DNA of 64,000 nt from Clostridia bacterium (lineage in GTDB: Bacteria > Bacillota > Clostridia > Christensenellales > QALW01): assembly GCA_017502165.1 (NCBI GenBank), contig JAFVVO010000031.1, positions 1 to 64,000 on the forward strand, read 5' to 3'. How positions within the stretch are numbered: position 1 is the stretch's first letter; every line of letters starts with the position of its first letter. The position numbers and the translations under genes are program-made. The notes under the pieces were generated by a model. The model saw nothing but the letters and a program-made list of their open reading frames with translations, was not told where the DNA came from and made no database searches. Shown here piece after piece: positions 5,964 through 56,944 of this stretch.

Positions 5964-6053
5964 AATTTTTCTCCTTAATTACGTGTATTATATACCAATT
6001 AATGTTATATGGCAATTAAAAAAGATGGAGAAAGTAGTAAAAAAAGGCAAAGA

Positions 6054-6115
6054 GAAGGGGATTACCAATCGTTTTCTTTTCGGCTGGCTCCTACCGTGGT
6101 GTTCGAATCCCCTTC
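6054..6115. repeat. 62-bp mini-element bounded by tRNA-Ser-like inverted ends (locus 1)
   Basis: The segment begins GAAGGGGATT and ends with its exact complement AATCCCCTTC. Both ends match the 3' part of the tRNA-Ser gene at 7324-7415. Its interior (6068-6104) shares about 37 bp with the longer element at 7121-7275, including CGTGGTGTTCGAATCC. The stretch 5964-6268 otherwise holds only this, a terminator and the tail of the next gene's transcript. Confidence 0.6.
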
Positions 6116-6129
6116 CAAACTTAGTGAGC

Positions 6130-6161
6130 AAAAAAGGAACTACTTTCGTAGTTCCTTTTTT
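6130..6161. terminator. Hairpin terminator
   Basis: AAAAAAGGAACTAC and GTAGTTCCTTTTTT arms around a 4-nt loop form a symmetrical intrinsic terminator. It lies downstream of the hypothetical gene at 6269-6820 on the minus strand. Confidence 0.8.
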
Positions 6162-6268
6162 GTTGCCTTAAATGAGTAAAAAGGTCAACTGAGGTAAGTA
6201 AAACTGAAAAAAAGGTCAACTTTTTCCCTGCTGCCTTCTCGACAAATTGAAATTTGTGTATGTGTCCT

Positions 6269-6820
6269 TTACTTTGAGATGCCATAATAAACACTTGATT
6301 TTGGCCATCTGGGAATTTCTTTAACATTAAGGTGCTCCTGAAACAAAGCAATTGTTTCATCATCAAAAGGAATAATGAGCACATCTCGCTTTTTAAGAGC
6401 TTGGTAGCCTCCCATTTCCTCATACGGCACACGGGAACCTGGTTTCCAAATCATAATAAATGGATACTTTGCTGGTGAATATCGACGAGCAAAGGACAGT
6501 TCTGTAGTGGATATGCAAAATGGCTGGTTGACATCTATCGTATAGCTTGTATCTTTAATATAAACAGCAAAAATAGTCCCATCAAATGACCACTTTGCTA
6601 AACAGTATTTCCGCAAGCGAAGATTTTGAAAATGGACTACACCGAATATAATTGCAAAAAACAAGGAAACCCAAACACCATCTAAATTCCTATGAGTAAT
6701 TGAGGGAATAATGAACATAAGATGTACTATTAATTCAAGAGGAAGCATTATAAGTCCCGCTTTTGTAAAAATCTTTCTTTCCTGCGCAGGAAACACATAT
6801 TGATTTTTAGAAACTTGCAT
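6269..6820 (-). CDS. Protein of unknown function with two N-terminal membrane helices
   Basis: The 183-residue product has two adjacent hydrophobic helices near residues 20-40 and 46-66 and then a soluble region of about 115 residues with alternating beta-like segments (for example IFAVYIKDTSYTID and RDVLIIPFDDE), a layout like small membrane-anchored PH/YcxB-type proteins. That comparison is only structural. I use ATG 6820, which has GGGG 8 nt upstream, rather than GTG 6829. The gene lies between repeats, next to tRNA-Ser, and is driven by a promoter at the end of a hairpin array, a setting shared with the unrelated unknown gene at 37820-38287. Likely an accessory gene. Confidence 0.75.
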   Translation of the reverse strand: MQVSKNQYVFPAQERKIFTKAGLIMLPLELIVHLMFIIPSITHRNLDGVWVSLFFAIIFGVVHFQNLRLRKYCLAKWSFDGTIFAVYIKDTSYTIDVNQPFCISTTELSFARRYSPAKYPFIMIWKPGSRVPYEEMGGYQALKKRDVLIIPFDDETIALFQEHLNVKEIPRWPKSSVYYGISK

Positions 6821-6862
6821 TACATTCACCCCTTTTTCAAATTCTTATTTATCGATGAGTTA

Positions 6863-6891
6863 ATTATACCACACTTTCGCCAATAAATCAA
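6863..6891 (-). promoter_or_regulatory. Sigma-A-type promoter at the end of hairpin array 1
   Basis: On the minus strand TTGATT (6886-6891), a 17-nt spacer and TATAAT (6863-6868), with TGTGG just before the -10. The -35 box abuts the terminal hairpin AAGGC-tac-GCCTT of the array. The same cassette recurs at 38310-38338. Confidence 0.85.
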
Positions 6892-7070
6892 GGCGTAGCC
6901 TTGCATATCATCCGCAACTTGTTGCGGTATATCATCAACACGAAGTGTTGTATATCATCAATCCGCAGGGAAATGCACGCTGGCGCGTGATGAGATACAA
7001 GGGCGGCTTGCCGCCCTTGATGATATGCGCCGCACTTCGTGCGTCAATGATATGCCAAGCCTGCGGCTTG
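6887..7070. repeat. Hairpin array 1 (ATATCATC spacer type)
   Basis: Short perfect hairpins alternate with a constant spacer. In order: AAGGCgtaGCCTT, spacer, CCGCAACttgTTGCGG, spacer, ACACgaaGTGT, spacer, a less regular centre, AAGGGCGGcttgCCGCCCTT, spacer, GCACttcGTGC, spacer, CAAGCCtgcGGCTTG. In the left half the spacer reads ATATCATC; in the right half it reads GATGATAT or AATGATAT, the reverse complement. The whole can fold into several small stems or into one long nested stem. No protein or known RNA family is recognised. Confidence 0.75.
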
Positions 7071-7073
7071 GAT

Positions 7074-7130
7074 AAACAAAAAGAACACTACGTGTGTAGT
7101 GTTCTTTTTGTTGGCGGAGAGAAGGGGATT
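7074..7130. repeat. 57-bp direct copy of the tRNA-Ser 3' end and its terminator
   Basis: Positions 7074-7130 are identical to 7286-7342, an offset of 212 bp. The copy includes a complete terminator hairpin (7078-7109) and 19 nt of the tRNA-Ser 3' end with the CCA complement. It resembles the duplicated tRNA end left by site-specific integration, but no integrase is in the window. Confidence 0.75.
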
Positions 7131-7275
7131 ACGCCTGTTTCACAGGCTTCCTGCTCGGCGACCGCTCCATTTGCTTCGCAATATTCGCAGTACCCGCCTC
7201 ACACAGCAAGCCTGAAAACGATTATCAATCGTTTTCTTTTCGGCTTGCTCCCACCGTGGTGTTCGAATCCTCTTC
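7121..7275. repeat. 155-bp mini-element bounded by tRNA-Ser-like inverted ends (locus 2)
   Basis: Bounded by GAAGGGGATT (7121-7130) and AATCCTCTTC (7266-7275), inverted with one mismatch. The interior has a hairpin AACGATTatcAATCGTT and near 7226-7280 repeats the right half of the 6054-6115 element. It lies between the two 57-bp direct copies. No coding sequence. Confidence 0.6.
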
Positions 7276-7289
7276 CAAACTTTACAAAC

Positions 7290-7321
7290 AAAAAGAACAC
7301 TACGTGTGTAGTGTTCTTTTT
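7290..7321 (-). terminator. Terminator of tRNA-Ser
   Basis: A perfect 14-bp stem (AAAAAGAACACTAC / GTAGTGTTCTTTTT) with a 4-nt loop starts 2 nt past the tRNA CCA end on the minus strand. Confidence 0.85.
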
Positions 7322-7323
7322 GT

Positions 7324-7415
7324 TGGCGGAGAGAAGGGGATTCGAACCCCTGAATGGGTATTAGCCATTACACGATTTCCAATCGTGCGCCTTCGACCAG
7401 CTCAGCCATCTCTCC
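7324..7415 (-). tRNA. tRNA-Ser (anticodon GGA)
   Basis: Ninety-two nucleotides with acceptor stem GGAGAGA/TCTCTCC, discriminator G and encoded CCA. The anticodon stem is CACGA/TCGTG around TTGGAAA, giving anticodon GGA that reads UCC/UCU. A long variable arm and the T-arm GGGTTCGAATCCC identify serine type. Partial copies of its 3' end occur at 7107-7130 and 6052-6063. Confidence 0.96.
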
Positions 7416-38287: not shown

Positions 38288-38309
38288 ATCTACTCCTCCT
38301 TTCTTTTTA

Positions 38310-38338
38310 ACTATACCACACTCTCGCAAATAAATCAA
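38310..38338 (-). promoter_or_regulatory. Sigma-A-type promoter at the end of hairpin array 2
   Basis: Minus-strand TTGATT (38333-38338), 17-nt spacer, TATAGT (38310-38315), with the spacer ending GAGTGTGG. It is a near copy of the cassette at 6863-6891, including the adjoining AAGGC-tac-GCCTT hairpin. Confidence 0.85.
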
Positions 38339-38566
38339 GGCGTAGCCTTGTATATCATCCGAAACTTGTTGCGGTAGGTTTGCAGTGAAATATTCGGCTT
38401 GCGCCGAATGTGAAATAATTCACTGCGTGAATTGTGAAATATTGCTTCCTTTGGTCGCAATGTGAAATGAAATTTGCCCACATTCGCGTCAGCGAATATT
38501 TCACATTTGCGGAGCAAATATTTCACAGCGGAGCTATTTCACTTGCCCGCAAGGGCAAATTTCGTT
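38338..38566. repeat. Hairpin array 2 (GTGAAAT spacer type)
   Basis: After AAGGCgtaGCCTT and an ACTTGTTGCGG segment shared with array 1, the spacer switches to GTGAAAT(A): four forward copies alternate with hairpins such as TTCGGCttgcGCCGAA, ATTCACtgcGTGAAT and ATTGC...GCAAT. After a central stretch with TTCGCgtcaGCGAA, three reversed copies (ATTTCAC) alternate with TTTGCggaGCAAA, AGCggaGCT and TTGCCCgcaaGGGCAA. The array is thus a palindrome of palindromes. It lies between the unknown gene's promoter and the tRNA-Pro terminator. Confidence 0.75.
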
Positions 38567-38567
38567 G

Positions 38568-56282: not shown

Positions 56283-56660
56283 ATGTCTCTTAATTATAAT
56301 AAAAACAACATCTCTTTGGCAAAGCACCTTCGTAAAAATCCAACACCGCAGGAAGCGCACCTTTGGTATGATTTTTTATCAACATACAAAATAAGATTTC
56401 AGCGGCAAAAAGCTATAGACAACTTTATTGCAGATTTTTATTGCCACAAGGCAAAACTTATCATAGAAATCGACGGTTCACAGCATTTCACGGAAGCAGG
56501 TTTGCAAAAAGACGAATTTCGTACAAACGTTCTCGAAAGATACGGCTTGACCGTTATAAGATTTACCAATAGGCAGATAGATACAAACTTTAACGGTGTA
56601 TGCGAGTATATTGATACTCTCGTTCAAGCCTCCCTCTCGGAGGGAGGGGAACCGCGTTAG
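56283..56660 (+). CDS. DUF559 (Vsr/restriction endonuclease-like fold) protein
   Basis: The 125-residue protein has the DUF559 pattern: LRKNPTPQEAHLWYDFL, FQRQKAIDNFIADFYC and the nuclease-like core LIIEIDGSQH (Glu and Asp metal ligands), ending RYGLTVIRFTNRQID. GGAG precedes ATG 56283 by 9 nt. Its last ten residues (SLSEGGEPR) are read from the first bases of a tandem repeat, so the gene and repeat appear to be one cassette. A DNA-cleaving role is likely but no partner is known. Confidence 0.88.
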   Translation: MSLNYNKNNISLAKHLRKNPTPQEAHLWYDFLSTYKIRFQRQKAIDNFIADFYCHKAKLIIEIDGSQHFTEAGLQKDEFRTNVLERYGLTVIRFTNRQIDTNFNGVCEYIDTLVQASLSEGGEPR

Positions 56661-56870
56661 CGGTGGAAGGAGTTTTTGGCAACACCCCCGACTCTTCCTT
56701 GCAATTAATCGTTCTCTCCCTCAGTCAGCTTACGCTGACAGCTCCCTCTCGGAGGGAGGGGGACCGCGTTAGCGGTGGAAGGAGTTTTTGGCACCCCCCG
56801 ACTCTTCCTTGCAATTAATCGTTCTCTCCCTCAGTCAGCTTACGCTGACAGCTCCCTCTCGGAGGGAGCC
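56630..56870. repeat. Tandem 110-112 bp repeat, two copies plus a partial third
   Basis: Copies start at 56630, 56742 and 56852 with CTCCCTCTCGGAGGGAG. Each contains that palindrome, ACCGCgttaGCGGT, a GGAAGGAG-rich middle, ATTAATCGTT and GTCAGCttacGCTGAC. Copies differ by a few bases and a small indel. The third copy is cut after its palindrome. The 56871-57044 remainder holds a terminator and no gene. Confidence 0.9.
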
Positions 56871-56944
56871 TTAAAAACGAATGGTTGTAAACGTCACTAC
56901 GATATAAAGCAAATAGTACGCTACCGCAAATTATCACAACCCAC

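Follow-up and report, generated by a model that had tools for sequence, protein, structure and literature searches.

The window, by which we mean the entire 64,000-nt stretch analysed and not the array alone, contains at 6889-7071 a row of short palindromes, raising the question of whether such an array represents a structured RNA, a control region or a copy of a dispersed repeat, and in which molecule it acts.

Array design and placement behind tRNA terminators

The pattern as such proved real, with the boundaries proposed by an earlier sequence-only reading good to about two bases. The array comprises seven variable hairpins and one half-hairpin, separated by yATATCAT linkers that flip to ATGATATr between the two halves, congruent with the constant spacer reversing mid-array recognised in that reading. 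Hairpin parsing places the canonical first hairpin H1 (7055-7071, CCAAGCC-GCA-GGCTTGG) on the minus strand, followed by H2 (7028-7046), H3 (6998-7019) and H4 (6976-6989), with the first-half linkers, yAT[A/C]TCAT on the minus strand, at 7047-7054, 7020-7027 and 6990-6997. Next stands the half-hairpin X (6959-6969, CCTGCGGATTG on the minus strand), which complements the 5' half and loop of H1 except for one base. The second half, with its linker sense on the plus strand, consists of H5 (6936-6950), H6 (6912-6927) and the last hairpin, H7 (6889-6903), joined by yATATCAT linkers at 6951-6958, 6928-6935 and 6904-6911. Listed from H7 to H1, the linkers are CATATCAT, TATATCAT, TATATCAT, then ATGAGATA, ATGATATG and ATGATATG. 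The spacer is constant overall, with ATGAGATA as the one variant, and the stems differ in sequence while being self-complementary, as had been described; the epithet 'perfectly' applies to six of them, but not to H2, which holds two imperfect pairs, nor to 6959-6969, which is only half a hairpin.

Seven perfect hairpins were counted in the array, whereas 1000 Markov resamples averaged 0.56 with a maximum of 3, and no more than five occurred in any of 345 tiles of 185 nt. The motif ATATCATC is found six times in the window versus 1.1 expected, and the RNA folding z-scores of the array amount to -8.5 on the plus and -9.9 on the minus strand. CRISPR loci consist of a fixed repeat of about 23-50 nt and non-palindromic unique spacers. 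The arrays share with them the alternation of a constant and a variable unit, but the variable part is self-complementary, and the constant part spans 8 nt and reverses its orientation. As the segments between the 8-nt linkers were palindromic in 29 of 30 distinct cases from the own genome and related loci, CRISPR was ruled out, in agreement with the sequence-only reading, which was also right in setting aside a simple tandem repeat.

The array is extragenic and exists in many copies and two orientations. When the same genome was searched, as had been advised, linker-segment-linker matches numbered 16, spread over six contigs, compared to zero for the reversed pattern, and the window array belongs to a set of six such loci. 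Five copies can be aligned along their entire length at 82-90% identity and stand behind different tRNAs, with unrelated flanks. The query DNA matched 8 of 61 genomes, the own included, although some matches cover the terminator and tRNA end only. Across the order, in many species of which arrays recur, the two-linker pattern matched 55 of 297 genomes (a count of pattern matches, not all of them true arrays and several single ones due to chance) and the reversed pattern 6 of 297. Phylum-wide, 36 of 199 genomes matched, the own included; beyond the own genome, the 48 matches listed included no palindrome. A scan of named genomes yielded at least 118 stretches, mostly from gut and rumen Clostridia assemblies, which bears out the earlier impression of a pattern typical of gut Clostridia. 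Among the distinct segments of these stretches, 155 of 214 had at most one stem mismatch, as compared to 6 of 155 in 120 viral IMG/VR stretches. The latter look like coding repeats and served as a negative control, with one exception that carries a parsed array; a viral origin was rejected on these grounds, and a search for a phage homologue of the array itself found none. Other instances in the genome and conservation in relatives, on which the sequence-only reading had staked its pattern, were accordingly both found.

In the window, an intact tRNA-Ser (gga) gene (7324-7415, minus strand) lies upstream of the array, which abuts a terminator hairpin (7075-7112, minus strand; second copy at 7287-7324). 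Directly upstream of this terminator, a tRNA remnant (7113-7130, minus strand) forms a second copy of the 18-nt 3' end of tRNA-Ser, within a 57-nt direct repeat (7074-7130 and 7286-7342). Seen from the tRNA side, the layout is fixed: tRNA, terminator, H1-H4, X, H5-H7 and then often a promoter. Of 110 distinct arrays parsed, 58 have a tRNA within 900 nt on the 5' side and in the right direction, and none has one in the wrong direction only, versus 13 of 3285 random positions at the same loci; 30 of the remaining arrays are near the end of the fetched stretch, and 22 lack a tRNA despite long flanks on both sides. The terminator is preceded by a CCA-like end in 69 of 80 arrays with a terminator just before H1; this count follows a loose rule and includes remnants of tRNAs as well as two or more rows that are probably false. 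The same survey produced 42 rows without a terminator, mostly inner units read backwards, which were set aside by eye, and 7 more with too short a flank. Terminators of nearly identical sequence stand behind tRNAs for Ser, Trp, Arg and Ala, and terminator and array therefore seem to travel together. Moreover, of 76 canonical arrays, 66 have an X that complements, over 7 nt, the 5' half and loop of the accompanying H1, compared to 57 of 2978 pairings with an H1 of another type. The array is, in short, a dispersed repeat of about 185 bp directly behind tRNA terminators. These surroundings and the H1/X complementarity had escaped the sequence-only reading, as had the far-end promoter and the links to Gut-1 and PF05635 discussed below. 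At five loci, the array is preceded by no tRNA; its place is taken by a conserved stretch that ends in TTTTTTGTAGCCCATAGAC or close variants and sometimes lies behind another array in turn, yielding chains of arrays.

A tRNA-integrase island was weakened as a candidate, since a repeat of at least 12 nt within 6 kb beyond the array was detected in just 3 of 58 cases (13, 20 and 12 nt). Several neighbours beyond arrays are ordinary metabolic or transport genes, and much of the array cargo gave no informative Pfam match. When defence-gene cargo was sought, six of seven proteins returned nothing or weak matches and the seventh general HTH matches.

We then turned to a sister species of the same genus, G001, which is array-free. 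There, tRNA-Trp, its terminator and udg adjoin, with tRNA-Trp and terminator 55 bp from udg, whereas about 1.36 kb separate tRNA-Trp from udg in the present genome, holding a different terminator, an array and two ORFs. The comparison shows gain or loss of the array, though not the mechanism; no clean empty site with a target duplication was found in it, and no transposition was seen in the genomes compared. The tRNA-Ser locus of G001 likewise has tRNA end and terminator partially duplicated, with no array. In the window, at 7074-7342, a 212-nt stretch behind tRNA-Ser contains the terminator and the last 18 nt of the tRNA once more, and a related fragment, with GGTGTTCGAATCCCCTTCC, occurs at about 6096-6120 (region 6040-6180). 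The 3' ends of tRNA-Ser thus seem to be a place where another small element has inserted repeatedly.

At the far end of the window array, a sigma-70-like promoter (TTGATT-17 nt-TATAAT; 6863-6891, minus strand), the -35 of which overlaps the end of H7, is directed at a 186-aa ORF (6269-6829, minus strand) with no Pfam family at E 0.01. A TTGATT-16/18-TATAAT promoter formed with H7 terminates 21 of 78 canonical arrays. Such promoters, the position 3' of the tRNA in all 58 near-tRNA cases and the location of arrays upstream, not downstream, of PF05635 genes would suit a cis-acting, non-mobile control region that insulates the tRNA unit and carries the promoter of the next gene; where this gene is PF05635, its protein would perhaps control itself by binding to the array. 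The promoter is however missing from most of the 78 arrays, the stems are free to vary, and near-identical copies precede unrelated genes in one genome while being absent from the sister species. We regard a control region as unlikely.

Gut-1, loop polarity and the RNA question

The window harbours a second array (38383-38567, minus strand), downstream of a tRNA-Pro terminator, with linkers of another class, GTGAAATA / TATTTCAC, those of Rfam Gut-1. The Gut-1 model matched at 38383-38473 and 38493-38567, and 32 times in the same genome, 14 of these over the cut-off; at 6887-7071 the covariance model gave no match. The RF01706 alignment consists of three hairpins joined by GUGAAAUA. Gut-1 and the arrays thus share an identical hairpin-linker design and, in the window, the place behind a tRNA terminator, but differ in the linker and in that Gut-1 is annotated as an RNA gene. 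We conclude that Rfam 'Gut-1 RNA' is a piece of a second array class with another linker, cut from its inverted context. The right end of an ATATCAT array (H6, H7 and promoter; 38307-38376, minus strand) is fused to the Gut-1-class array, and this chimera (38307-38567) suggests that arrays recombine with, or insert into, those of another linker class. Elsewhere in the window, a stretch with TCCCTCTCGGAGGGAGG and GACCGCGTTAGCGGTGGAAGGAG is present in tandem copies at 56401-56880, behind an ORF that may resemble DUF559-type endonucleases.

Weinberg and others list Gut-1 as a noncoding RNA found in the human gut only (PMC2864571). This, and the strong RNA folding of both strands, would be expected of a structured RNA, as assumed by the Rfam entry, with the array being transcribed either by read-through of the tRNA terminator or from its far side and acting as RNA. 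To judge this possibility, it matters which structure and which strand are conserved. The sequence-only reading had proposed many small hairpins or, alternatively, a single long composite stem. Among 50 arrays with 3+3 linkers, the variable base of the linker showed no co-variation with the base nested opposite (83 Watson-Crick pairs in 150, 79 being expected; p 0.2), and complementarity to the nested partner was lacking in 45 of 150 linker cores, so that the composite stem was rejected. The conserved form is that of the small hairpins.

The loops of class ATATCAT conform to cGNAg or cGNNAg in the linker sense 122 times, versus 5 times as the reverse complements. The same polarity was recovered for the Gut-1 class (25:1) and for seven other linker patterns together (73:2), of which CATCAY and ATATCRC can overlap class ATATCAT units. 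Stem wobbles follow suit in class ATATCAT, with 41 G.T against 14 A.C in the linker sense (p 4e-4); split by half relative to the tRNA, the ratio is 25:3 in the first and 2:9 in the second, in a smaller and less clean set of 77 H1 candidates, a few of which are inner or unrelated hairpins. The bias is absent in other linker classes (3:3, 6:4, 8:8 and 5:3), and we count this against the explanation favoured below. The third base of GNNA loops is a purine in 22 and a pyrimidine in 22 cases, unlike in RNA GNRA loops. Work by Nakano in 2002 is said to have found d(cGNNAg) to be a stable DNA loop. The commonest loop is C(GAA)G (35 of 320), and GNA triloops closed by C-G constitute extraordinarily stable DNA minihairpins, GAA more so than GTA, according to PMC6479982, which cites Yoshizawa 1997 and Hirao 1994.

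As the two halves have their polarity on opposite strands, no single RNA can satisfy both. That loops and wobbles reverse together with the linker in mid-array is consistent with separate folding of the two halves, each as a single strand, and not with one RNA. The breadth of the GNNA loops beyond GNRA, the lack of linker-linker co-variation and the terminator between tRNA and array also argue against a structured RNA, which we deem improbable. Sequencing and structure probing of array transcripts, as suggested in the sequence-only reading, may address the wrong molecule, since the polarity points rather to DNA in single-stranded form.

PF05635 genes and comparison with known systems

Some ATATCAT-class arrays of other genomes are followed by a PF05635 ORF, the counterpart in the window copy being the 186-aa ORF without Pfam match. 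Eight of the 78 canonical arrays precede an ORF of one PF05635 subfamily, three of which were tested against Pfam. We also approached the link from the gene side, with PF05635 genes from 18 genomes, 17 of them chosen for ATATCAT matches, giving 44 listed matches at 30 loci. By eye, 25 of the 30 have a hairpin array with its own linker directly upstream (ATGATG, GTGAAG, ACGATGT, TGAATTG, GTTATAT, GCGATAT and others), three have heptamer tandem repeats and two could not be judged. Automatic scoring, which skipped three loci with short flanks, detected hairpins and inverted linker repeats upstream of 15 of 27 PF05635 genes versus 10 of 151 control ORFs (p 1e-8), nine of these ten being themselves at arrays. 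According to ARAGORN, 14 of the 30 loci contain a tRNA, which in many cases lies directly upstream, and two gut phage scaffolds carry PF05635 together with arrays, one with the TGAAAT linker of the Gut-1 class. Class-specific arrays of the same design are thus situated directly upstream of PF05635 genes, and co-inheritance of neighbours can explain the match of linker and protein subfamily without recognition.

The linker, picked from the upstream side, recurs downstream of the gene in only 1 of 21 cases, meaning that the gene is not bracketed. No known nuclease or transposase domain was found in the PF05635 protein, and, judged by sequence, the solved structure closest to the class ATATCAT protein is that of the uncharacterised 2rld. 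The only PF05635 gene of the present genome sits behind tRNA-Asp with another, non-matching repeat, and two further array-bearing genomes, G084 and G231, gave no PF05635 match.

Outside the order (same phylum; plasmids of cyanobacteria, Bacteroidota and Treponema), many PF05635 genes are preceded by degenerate heptamer repeats without hairpins. The best self-match at periods 6 to 9 has a median of 0.64 upstream of PF05635, with period 7 in most, versus 0.50 for 95 control ORFs (p 1.4e-6), and reaches at least 0.7 at 7 of 31 loci versus 2 of 95, the 31 including the two phage scaffolds and leaving out one locus. Inside the order, three loci have plain heptamer-type tandem repeats in place of hairpin arrays and are possible intermediates. 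At three loci, the sequence upstream of the PF05635 gene resembles 23S rRNA, as in classical intervening sequences, with heptamer repeats before the ORF.

Intervening sequences (IVS) of 23S rRNA with S23p are described for Coxiella in PMC4990558, where three GACAGAT heptamers precede S23p. As with some arrays of other genomes, a PF05635-type ORF directly follows short repeats in or beside a stable RNA gene, and IVS and arrays alike are suspected mobile elements; the same paper passes on the older idea that IVS-type elements were once mobile and required the ORF for mobility, and notes that Xanthomonas S23p is a homopentamer of four-helix bundles. The IVS, however, lies inside 23S rRNA and is excised by RNase III, whereas the arrays stand behind tRNA terminators, bear hairpins between the repeats and are mostly without a gene.

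A second comparison is with REP/BIME and TnpA-REP (REPtrons), likewise short, dispersed extragenic palindromes in two opposite orientations, with copies beside one protein gene and the hairpin of one strand being decisive. By the definition of REP given in PMC8266576, the same logic of single-strand hairpins, two orientations and a nearby gene would also suit arrays moved by a Y1 HUH transposase (TnpA-REP/RAYT), or an integron-like attC series. REPs, however, have a conserved GTAG and stem, while the arrays combine a free stem with a constant 8-nt linker, a PF05635 partner gene and a fixed place behind tRNAs. No GTAG-type tetranucleotide precedes the palindromes, the linkers being yATATCAT, ATTTCAY, CTTCAY and others. 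The Y1 HUH gene (PF01797) is absent from the own genome, which is 96% complete, and no Y1_Tnp match was obtained there or in four other array-bearing genomes; together with the ordinary genes beyond several arrays, this led us to reject a Y1/RAYT-driven REP, and such origins as a whole appear extremely improbable. Within the open-access literature searched (palindromic repeats in Clostridia, Gut-1, REP/RAYT with tRNA, PF05635/IVS), we found no description of the arrays or of the link between PF05635 and repeats.

Proposed mode of action and meaning

Aggregated, we lean, at slightly better than even chance, towards the array being a non-autonomous copy in a REP-like interspersed family linked to PF05635. 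From the observed placement, hairpin design, polarity and neighbouring gene, we infer mobility, action as a single strand and a role of PF05635. The working form would be single-stranded DNA, for instance during replication, in which each half may fold into a series of small hairpins with very stable DNA loops at their tips, presenting the linkers. H1 could open and pair with X, thereby closing the first half. A four-helix-bundle PF05635 protein of the matching class would recognise linker and hairpin, not the stem sequence, which would explain why stems drift freely. This protein, or a host pathway recruited by it, might spread arrays or keep them at tRNA 3' ends, with gene-less copies, the window array included, as putative satellites or relics, the far end of which would often provide a promoter to the next gene. 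Counting against this explanation are the lack of observed transposition and of a clean empty site with target duplication, the unbracketed gene and the missing catalytic domain, as well as arrays without a matching PF05635 gene in the own genome and the two others, and the 22 of 110 arrays without a tRNA.

A bolder proposal, which we advance tentatively and with less than even confidence, is that PF05635 (S23p/four-helix-bundle) proteins define a new, widespread mobile or repeat-maintaining single-stranded DNA system that lacks any recognised transposase. In the ancestral state, heptamer tandem repeats would adjoin the gene, whether within rRNA or at other sites, and in this order they would have become linkers between drifting hairpins and multiplied behind tRNAs, each linker class with its own protein subfamily.

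For the family, the findings mean that a catalogued orphan 'RNA', Gut-1, is re-read as part of a DNA repeat family, and that PF05635, a large family of obscure role so far known from 23S rRNA intervening sequences, gains a candidate DNA substrate. The arrays furthermore constitute a natural experiment, in which the stem sequence varies freely, pairing, loop type and linker are retained, and both strands are used in one element.
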